A stretch of 64,000 bases of DNA, taken from the NCBI RefSeq assembly GCF_030268965.1, contig NZ_BSSE01000004.1, forward strand, positions 1-64,000, read 5' to 3'. Below, one piece after another: positions 27,144-29,036 of this stretch (within the stretch, counting starts at the first letter, position 1; every line of letters starts with the position of its first letter). Below the pieces are notes generated by a model, which saw nothing but the letters and a program-made list of their open reading frames with translations, was not told the origin of the DNA and made no database searches. The stretch comes from Microtetraspora sp. NBRC 16547. GTDB lineage: Bacteria > Actinomycetota > Actinomycetes > Streptosporangiales > Streptosporangiaceae. Both the position numbers and the translations under genes were made by a program.

Positions 27144-27247
27144 TCGGATCGGACACCGGGGACGGCAAGGTACAGTGCTAGGAAGTGTCCCGAGATGATC
27201 TTCGGGACATGCCCTGCGGCACGCCCGACAGGGCACAACTGAATATT

Positions 27248-27393
27248 GCTCATCCAGAGGGGTGGAGGGACCGGCCCTGCGAAGCCCCGGCAACCTCCCC
27301 GGTGCCCGTGCCCGTGCTCGTGACGCACGAGGCCGGCCGGGACAGGTGCCAATTCCGGCTCGTGACCAGGGTGGCCACGAGCGAAGATGAGGG
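27248..27393 (+). promoter_or_regulatory. SAM-I riboswitch (S-box)
   Basis: The SAM-I core can be read in order. The P1 5' strand CTCATC (27249-27254) is followed by CAGAGGGGTGGAGGGA, the conserved CCGGCCCTGCGAAGCCCCGG and CAACC, a variable GC-rich P3 arm, then AGGTGCCAATTCCGGC, and after the P4 arm GAGCGAAGATGAG, whose GATGAG closes P1. The arrangement is that of SAM-I and not SAM-IV, because AGAGGGGTGGAGGGA and GGTGCCAATTCC are the classic S-box blocks. The ribosome site of the next gene (GGGGAAGG, about 27390-27397) overlaps and abuts the 3' strand of P1, so SAM binding could hide it or drive termination; the mechanism is not resolved by eye. Confidence 0.93.
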
Positions 27394-27407
27394 GAAGGCC
27401 TCGCTTC

Positions 27408-28670
27408 ATGGCGCTCGCAAGCACTGCAAACACCTCTCTCGACTTCGGCCCCGCCTCCGCTCTGTCCTGTCGTGAGTGCGGCACCCGCTACGACCTCGGC
27501 CCGATCTTCGCGTGTGCCGAGTGTTTCGGGCCGCTCGAGGTGGCGTACGACTTCGGCCCGGTGACCCGCGAGGAGATCGCGGCCGGACCGACCAACATCT
27601 GGCGATACAGCAAGCTCCTCCCCGTCCCAGGAAACGTCGAGACCCGCCCCAACCTGCAGCCGGGCTGGACCAAGCTGGTCAAGGCCGACACCCTTGCGAC
27701 AGAGCTGGGCCTCCGCTCGCTGTACATCAAGGACGACTCGGGCAACCCCACCCACTCCTTCAAGGACCGCGTGGTGGCGATCGCCCTGGAGGCCGCGCGG
27801 AACTTCGGCTTCCACACGCTGTCCTGCTCCTCCACGGGCAACCTCGCCGGAGCCGTCGGCGCGGCCGCCGCCCGCGCGGGGCTCGACTCGTGCGTGTTCA
27901 TCCCCTCCGACCTCGAAGCGGCCAAGATCACCATGGCCTCGGTGTACGGCGGCCGCCTGGTCGCCATCGAGGGCACCTACGACGAGGTCAACCGCTTCTG
28001 CTCCGAGCTCATCGGCGACGAGCTGGGCGAGAAGTGGGGCTTCGTCAACGTCAACCTCCGCCCGTACTACGCGGAGGGCTCCAAGACGCTGGCCTACGAG
28101 ATCGCCGAGCAGCTCGGCTGGCGGATCCCCGACCAGATCGTCATCCCGGTGGCCTCCGGATCCCAGCTCACGAAGATCGACAAGGGCTTCCGTGAGCTGA
28201 TCAAGCTGGGGCTCGTCGAGGACAAGCCCTACCGCGTCTTCGGCGCGCAGGCCGAGGGCTGCTCGCCGGTCTCCACCGCGTACAAGGCCGGGCACGACGT
28301 GGTCCAGCCGGTCAAGCCGGACACGATCGCCAAGTCGCTGGCGATCGGCAACCCGGCCGACGGGCCGTACGTGCTGGACATCGCGCGGCGTACCGGCGGC
28401 GGGGTCGAGGACGTGAACGACCGCGAGGTCGTCGACGCGATCCGGCTGCTGGCCCGCACCGAGGGCATCTTCGCCGAGACGGCGGGCGGGGTGACCGTCG
28501 GGGTGCTGCGCAAGCTCACCGAGAGCGGCACGCTCGACCCCGAGGCGGAGACCGTCTTGCTCAACACCGGCGACGGCCTGAAGACCCTGGACGCCGTCGC
28601 GGCCGAGGCCCGGCCCGCCGCGGTCATCCGCCCCTCCCTCGCGGCATTCCGTACGGCTTTCGCCAACTGA
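27408..28670 (+). CDS. metM: Threonine-synthase-family PLP enzyme, probable MetM homocysteine synthase
   Basis: A 420-residue fold-type II PLP enzyme. The N-terminus has a Cys-rich segment (CRECGTRYDLGPIFACAEC, residues about 24-42). The PLP Lys lies in NPTHSFKDRVV and the phosphate loop is likely SSTGNLAGAVG. By family it would convert O-phosphohomoserine to threonine (ThrC). Two contextual facts point to methionine instead: a SAM-I riboswitch lies directly upstream and a sulfur-carrier gene directly downstream. That is the layout of metM-metO reported from Streptomyces, where the threonine synthase homologue makes homocysteine from O-phosphohomoserine and a thiocarboxylated carrier. The activity is inferred from context and not seen in residues. 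ATG 27408 is the start. A true thrC should then exist elsewhere in the genome. Confidence 0.85.
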   Translation: MALASTANTSLDFGPASALSCRECGTRYDLGPIFACAECFGPLEVAYDFGPVTREEIAAGPTNIWRYSKLLPVPGNVETRPNLQPGWTKLVKADTLATELGLRSLYIKDDSGNPTHSFKDRVVAIALEAARNFGFHTLSCSSTGNLAGAVGAAAARAGLDSCVFIPSDLEAAKITMASVYGGRLVAIEGTYDEVNRFCSELIGDELGEKWGFVNVNLRPYYAEGSKTLAYEIAEQLGWRIPDQIVIPVASGSQLTKIDKGFRELIKLGLVEDKPYRVFGAQAEGCSPVSTAYKAGHDVVQPVKPDTIAKSLAIGNPADGPYVLDIARRTGGGVEDVNDREVVDAIRLLARTEGIFAETAGGVTVGVLRKLTESGTLDPEAETVLLNTGDGLKTLDAVAAEARPAAVIRPSLAAFRTAFAN

Positions 28671-28708
28671 CCGCGTTTTACCTACGAAGCAACGAAAGTG
28701 AGCGAAAA

Positions 28709-28984
28709 ATGAGCGTTTCTGTGCGGATTCCGACGATTCTTCGCACATACACGGGGGGAGTCGCAGAGGTCTCCGGTGAGGGCGGAACGCTGCGCGAGGT
28801 CCTGCAGAAGCTCGACGCCGACTATCCCGGAATCGGCGCCCGGATCCTCGATGAAACGGGCAAGATTCGGCGTTTCGTCAACGTCTATGTCGGAGAAGAG
28901 GATGTCCGATTCGCCGAGGGGCTGGACACCGCGACTCCCGAGGGCGTCCAGATCTCGGTGATCCCCGCCGTGGCCGGCGGCTGA
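28709..28984 (+). CDS. metO: ThiS/MoaD-like sulfur-carrier protein, probable MetO
   Basis: A 91-residue ubiquitin-fold sulfur carrier. It opens with SVSVRIPTILRTYTGG, has the conserved helix TLREVLQKLDADYPGIG, and ends in the diagnostic di-glycine (VAGG), which is adenylated and thiocarboxylated in this family. It resembles CysO more than MoaD in length. Lying 38 bp after the PLP gene and before a terminator, it is the second gene of a two-gene riboswitch-controlled operon. In the MetM/MetO route it delivers sulfur for homocysteine synthesis; a role in cysteine or cofactor sulfuration is the alternative. Confidence 0.88.
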   Translation: MSVSVRIPTILRTYTGGVAEVSGEGGTLREVLQKLDADYPGIGARILDETGKIRRFVNVYVGEEDVRFAEGLDTATPEGVQISVIPAVAGG

Positions 28985-29002
28985 CCCGTCCCGCCCCCTC
29001 GG

Positions 29003-29036
29003 CACCCACGCGCCCATGCCGGGCGCGTGGGTGTTT
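29003..29036 (+). terminator. metM-metO operon terminator
   Basis: A perfect 12-bp stem (CACCCACGCGCC 29003-29014, GGCGCGTGGGTG 29022-29033), 7-nt loop, then TTTGC. It starts 19 bases after the metO stop. Confidence 0.85.

Follow-up and report, generated by a model that had tools for sequence, protein, structure and literature searches.

A SAM-I riboswitch, a threonine-synthase-like gene and a sulfur-carrier gene form a probable MetM/MetO methionine operon in Microtetraspora

We analysed a stretch of 64,000 nucleotides from Microtetraspora sp. NBRC 16547 (contig NZ_BSSE01000004.1, positions 1 to 64,000; hereafter the window) and conclude, with a probability of about 0.86, that it carries a two-gene MetM/MetO methionine operon under a SAM-I riboswitch, the products of which would make homocysteine. 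PMC12172450 describes, from the work of Hasebe et al. (2024, Appl Environ Microbiol, e01247-24), MetM and MetO of Streptomyces albulus, with a SAM riboswitch upstream, as an O-phosphohomoserine route to homocysteine. Since this route has already been reported in Streptomyces, we regard the locus as a well-supported further case and not as a new system. It shares with the S. albulus pair the threonine-synthase-like enzyme, the adjoining carrier and the upstream SAM riboswitch; the window comes from the Streptosporangiaceae, and the likeness is to the published description, not to S. albulus sequence. Streptomyces homologues that we fetched (S. albulus not among them) are 75–80% identical to the window protein and have the carrier adjoining. 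The first-pass annotation of this DNA had proposed the same MetM/MetO reading, which gains support at the level of sequence from the SAM-I element, a clade of its own for the enzyme, a separate ThrC, the lack of metX or metA matches and the S. albulus precedent.

Table 1. Positions of the features in the window and, in the last row, in the leader of one relative (L177)
Feature	Position	Strand	Basis
SAM-I riboswitch aptamer (RF00162)	27247..27393	+	71.4 bits vs gathering 44.4, full model 1-108
P1 5' strand CUCAUC	27249..27254	+	complementary to 27386-27391; paired in RF00162 alignment
P1 3' strand GAUGAG, also in competing anti-P1 hairpin	27386..27391	+	RF00162 alignment, folding
Predicted anti-P1 hairpin GAAG-A-UGAGG / CCUCG-CUUC, ending just 5' of start codon	27383..27407	+	free fold
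Shine-Dalgarno-like GGAAGG, in anti-P1 hairpin loop	27393..27398	+	folding and shuffled-tail control
metM-type gene, threonine-synthase-like PLP enzyme, 420 aa, N-terminal CxxC...CxxC	27408..28670	+	ORF, TIGR00260, PF00291, tree
metO-type sulfur carrier, 91 aa, C-terminus AVAGG	28709..28984	+	PF02597 ThiS
15-bp terminator-like hairpin, then short U run (UUU)	29001..29035	+	folding vs shuffles
T-box leader, then hairpin with six U, directly 5' of metM-type gene	L177:281-549	+	Rfam match

The leader clears the gathering threshold of the SAM-I covariance model and matches it end to end (E = 1e-14 in a search of the 64-kb window), beginning one base 5' of the start first noted, 27248. This is the single RF00162 match in the 7.8-Mb genome, and it lies on metM; for other SAM-riboswitch classes the search covered the window. 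The whole leader folded no better than shuffled sequences (z = −1.46), so the evidence for the aptamer is its covariance-model match. Fourteen nucleotides separate the aptamer from the PLP gene, and an in-frame ATG at 27387, upstream of the metM start, falls within the aptamer. The carrier gene follows after 38 nt; its product scores 54 bits against PF02597 (cut-off 22.5) and is thus a GG-ending carrier of the ThiS/MoaD type adjoining metM. Its best sequence matches among solved structures are 3dwg chain C, which we take to be CysO of M. tuberculosis (3dwg presumably being CysO/CysM), and 4n6e (ThiS/MoaD protein), and those of the MetM-type enzyme are threonine synthases. Among named organisms, the nearest matches to the enzyme come from Streptosporangiaceae, for example Microbispora rosea (87% identical); no relative turned up among viral contigs. 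These matches bear out the full SAM-I core, the threonine-synthase-family PLP gene and the GG-ending ThiS/MoaD-type gene described in the first-pass annotation. The terminator that it placed after them stood in part: the hairpin downstream of metO is strong (−32.3 kcal/mol against −19.8 for shuffles, s.d. 2.6), but its U run is short, and a stricter terminator pattern therefore had no match between 27050 and 29300.

Databases would be expected to call the enzyme a threonine synthase, as had been foreseen, and it does pass the NCBIfam thrC model TIGR00260 (274.1 bits, cut-off 167.1); it also shares with ThrC the PALP family and the PLP-lysine motif SFKDR. The second, true thrC predicted to lie elsewhere was found on another contig (C15, L022:7176-8273), where thrB adjoins it and hom and a lysA-like gene are close by; thrC, thrB and hom are each named by NCBIfam above cut-off, and lysA was recognised by eye. 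The window enzyme is 36% identical to this ThrC and occupies a separate branch. In a tree, 72 MetM rows including the window gene, which groups with Streptomyces homologues, were split from 29 ThrC rows with SH-aLRT support of 100, and the window enzyme falls outside the phylum's ThrC group. The tree was built by a quick method with a midpoint root, and the program flags long branches; five divergent rows (L224, L226–L229) lie on the ThrC side of that root. Comparison of 69 MetM rows with the 29 ThrC rows (eight divergent rows excluded) gave 27 alignment columns that are at least 90% conserved in each group, with different residues in the two. The PLP core (SFKDR/STGN) is common to both, and examples of the differences are SFKDR-VV in MetM versus SFKDR-GM in ThrC, STGN-LA versus STGN-TS, and N216/R218/Y221 versus S/N/R. 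Some of these columns presumably contact the phosphate site of ThrC; a literature search on the residues of that site yielded nothing usable. Four N-terminal cysteines (CxxC...CxxC) are present in 69/69 MetM rows, probably as a zinc ribbon, and are absent from ThrC. Among the divergent homologues, L225 (genome G358), about 42% identical, sits on a long branch of the tree; it has no SAM-I above the gathering score, and the carrier beside it is 59% identical to MetO. Two genomes (L230 and L231, in G333 and G377) hold a second MetM-like copy, 40–43% identical, besides their own MetM; for these extra copies no SAM-I scored above gathering, and no MetO was seen next to them.

We propose that the products of hom and thrB, encoded elsewhere in the genome, would make O-phosphohomoserine, which MetM would condense with sulfur borne by MetO to give homocysteine. 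MetO would carry the sulfur at its C-terminal GG in thiocarboxylate form, its likely charger being a MoeZ-type E1-sulfurtransferase of the same genome, and plentiful SAM would turn the operon off through the riboswitch. The genome does encode a MoeZ equivalog (730.7 bits, cut-off 647), which, judged by its sequence, is likely to act as E1 and sulfurtransferase for several carriers. It has four ThiS-family carriers: MetO, a CysO-like carrier with a JAB protein and a cysteine-synthase-type enzyme, one with thiG in the same stretch, and one more ending in GG. A PLP enzyme that accepts sulfur from a thiocarboxylated carrier is known from CysO/CysM. Compared with the CysO/CysM/Mec system, MetO is 53% identical to the genome's own CysO-like carrier, whereas the window enzyme is ThrC-like; neither a JAB protease gene nor cysM lies beside metO, the JAB–carrier–CysM set being elsewhere in the genome. 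The CysO-like carrier of that set (L253:2098-2376, contig C23) ends AVAGGAR, two residues past GG, and the JAB protease gene near it could serve to trim this end. If the published chemistry holds, the methionine route of the window relies on a sulfur-carrier protein and not on free sulfide.

We surveyed 398 Actinomycetota genomes, taking as MetM type any homologue with at least 50% identity (142 genomes; ten with weaker matches were excluded from these). A separate ThrC occurs in 140/142 MetM genomes and in 113/256 others, counted with the ThrC of the window's genome as query at E 1e-60 or better; some of the others may carry different ThrC types. SAM-I is present somewhere in 132 of the 142 MetM genomes, with no match in the other ten, against 93 of the 256. 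Of these 132 genomes, 88 had their riboswitch matches listed, and the aptamer lies 15–174 nt ahead of the aligned start of metM in 86 of them. Among 52 diverse loci (30 family codes), 42 have an aptamer above gathering upstream of metM; a repeat search of the ten without one, at E 1 or better, still gave no SAM-I. None of the eight more divergent homologues (L224–L231) has an aptamer above gathering. MetO adjoins metM in 107/109 close loci. It is within the fetched stretch of 39 of the 52 diverse loci and was not found in that of the other 13, one of which (L183) stops 88 nt past metM; start codons in the diverse loci were chosen by script and are rough, and gap lengths there were not used. 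SAM-I regulation across the phylum thus appears to mark metM as a methionine gene. In three loci of one family (L179–L181, f20), neither SAM-I nor an adjoining MetO was found for the MetM-type gene, which in L180 comes after the apparent end of ilvD. In another family (L208, f50) the ORF 3' of metM reads by eye as a sulfite/nitrite reductase. MetX is less frequent in MetM genomes (44/142) than in the others (126/256; Fisher p = 5e-4, kinship ignored). A strict alternation of MetM and MetX is ruled out by the 44 genomes that hold both, and the two routes are therefore compatible in one genome.

One of the ten diverse loci without SAM-I, L177 (genome G003, family f16), has a T-box leader in front of its metM-type gene, which also has no adjacent MetO. 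The match scores 75.1 bits, under the gathering threshold of 93, yet spans the full model (E = 5e-15). The stretch that follows, with a hairpin and six U, folds at −25.7 kcal/mol (z = −3.1), and the minimum-energy fold of stem I was not better than shuffles (z = 0.55). In the alignment, GAA-C-AUG-A-UC lies under the consensus GAA-a-uuc-a-CC. According to the accessible text of PMC7583486, the column of the consensus C usually holds the third specifier base and the next column a conserved purine; by these two rules the specifier reads AUG, probably for methionine. The acceptor bulge is UGGU, which by the acceptor-bulge/discriminator pairing rule in the available part of PMC4695836 calls for a discriminator base A. 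The specifier is placed 1–5 nt 5' of a conserved GAG in the part of PMC2494555 available to us; the L177 AUG is 6 nt ahead of GAG, outside that range, as are the corresponding Rfam consensus columns, likewise at 6 nt. Triplets closer to GAG read as a stop codon or have no purine after them, except CCC adjoining GAG. One base earlier, CAU (His) is disfavoured because the discriminator base of tRNA-His is C. The genome has ThrC and is not among the MetX matches listed. A methionine T-box before metM is thus one case in one genome, and a search of open-licence literature for T-boxes upstream of metM or thrC and for T-box specifiers returned general T-box papers only.

We weighed two other accounts of the enzyme's role. 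The gene might encode a second threonine synthase, its link to SAM arising because O-phosphohomoserine is common to threonine and methionine synthesis. The TIGR00260 score and the f20 loci, where SAM-I and an adjacent MetO were not seen, fit this account, as does the Microcystis MetM-like enzyme described in the available text of PMC12172450: 51.6% identical to S. albulus MetM and without a switch, it turned O-phosphohomoserine into threonine in vitro and gave an unidentified peak instead of homocysteine. Against it stand the normal ThrC of the window's own genome and of nearly all MetM genomes, and the different residues that MetM conserves at the 27 columns. Neither a carrier gene nor a SAM switch would make much sense for threonine, and the probable methionine-type T-box of L177 also speaks against this account. 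We therefore consider a threonine role improbable.

The other account assigns homocysteine mainly to a plant-like cystathionine gamma-synthase using O-phosphohomoserine, with MetM/MetO in a side role. The assembly (151 contigs, rated 100% complete) encodes four full-length Cys/Met-metabolism PLP proteins (PF01053), one of them over the NCBIfam PRK07811 'cystathionine gamma-synthase' cut-off (671 vs 513 bits), so a further homocysteine source is possible. Enzymes of this type are often lyases of reverse transsulfuration. The check for metX suggested with the first-pass reading found none in the genome: the best match scores 32 bits, against 405–476 bits for the MetX matches listed from the phylum sample, and neither MetA nor HcyBio had a credible match. 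The usual bacterial substrate of cystathionine gamma-synthase would then be absent, and the sole RF00162 element of the genome sits on metM; we judge that this account has little chance of being right. A genome with a sole threonine synthase and a full metX/metY pathway, the combination held at the outset to be incompatible with MetM/MetO, is not what we found: a separate true ThrC is present and an acyl-homoserine route was not detected. A firm grouping with true ThrC, likewise named at the outset as incompatible, did not occur in the tree. The MetM/MetO reading is consistent with these results.

Folding of the window leader suggests how the switch may act. In the free fold, the printed stem positions of the anti-P1 hairpin are unpaired with a probability of at most 0.03, and GGAAGG is unpaired at 0.99–1.00; with P1 forced, its four G fall to 0.02–0.27. 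As a control we made 200 dinucleotide-preserving shuffles of the 62 nt that follow the loop. With the natural tail, the probability that the four G are unpaired is 0.996, falling to 0.09 once P1 forms; with shuffled tails it averages 0.23 in the free fold, and none of the 200 attained 0.95 or matched the drop of the natural sequence. Poor access under forced P1 is commonplace, 108/200 shuffled tails being equal or lower. The model predicts SAM as an off signal with control at translation. When SAM is absent, the anti-P1 hairpin would take up the P1 3' strand and leave the Shine-Dalgarno sequence open to the ribosome in its loop; when SAM is present, P1 would capture that strand, the anti-P1 hairpin would be lost and the Shine-Dalgarno sequence would be paired. 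In the model, the P1 form lies 7.6 kcal/mol above the free fold, a difference that SAM binding and contacts outside the model would need to cover.

Access to the Shine-Dalgarno sequence dropped with P1 in 19/19 Streptosporangiaceae leaders, whose tails are near-identical, so that the 19 count as about one case. Other leaders were mixed, with access lower in 62/91 and higher in two; the search pattern fixes four of the six P1 pairs, and pair counts are no evidence here. Arms of the form GAGG...CCTC occur in 103/110 leaders, mostly of Streptomyces and Streptosporangiaceae, which is conservation and not covariation. The riboswitch might act instead by stopping transcription. Several distant MetM leaders (L187, L192 and L193) have, by eye, a hairpin and T run between aptamer and gene, and transcriptional control therefore looks likely in such leaders, as in L187 and L193. 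The window leader, however, leaves merely 14 nt between aptamer and ATG, has no T run, and gave no terminator-like site in a scan. For the window we consider transcriptional control unlikely and favour control at translation.

Taken across the phylum, these data raise the tentative idea that MetM is the more ancient and more widespread path to homocysteine in Actinomycetota, long hidden under the name of threonine synthase, with two unrelated RNA sensors, SAM-I in most lineages and, in one or more, a tRNA-Met T-box, and with an unusual switch in Streptosporangiaceae in which the Shine-Dalgarno sequence lies in the anti-P1 loop. The new details are that predicted switch and the L177 metM-type gene after a T-box with a probable AUG specifier. 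With this gene named after the wrong amino acid, such a genome, if judged by its gene names, would seem to have two threonine synthases and no homocysteine route; the phylum-wide link to a SAM sensor, with the one probable methionine T-box, offers a simple rule for renaming the gene. We found no further open-licence literature on MetM, no mention of metM in the accessible parts of PMC12452182, PMC3766115 and PMC7311316, and no open-licence precedent for the phylum figures, the T-box case or the switch model, part of which the original MetM paper may hold. The 2021 reannotation of S. lividans TK24 (PMC8079986) has an RF00162 element upstream of two genes; Table 3 there enters it under 'Threonine biosynthesis', with no tie to methionine in the portion available, and records 21 of 22 elements as seen transcribed.
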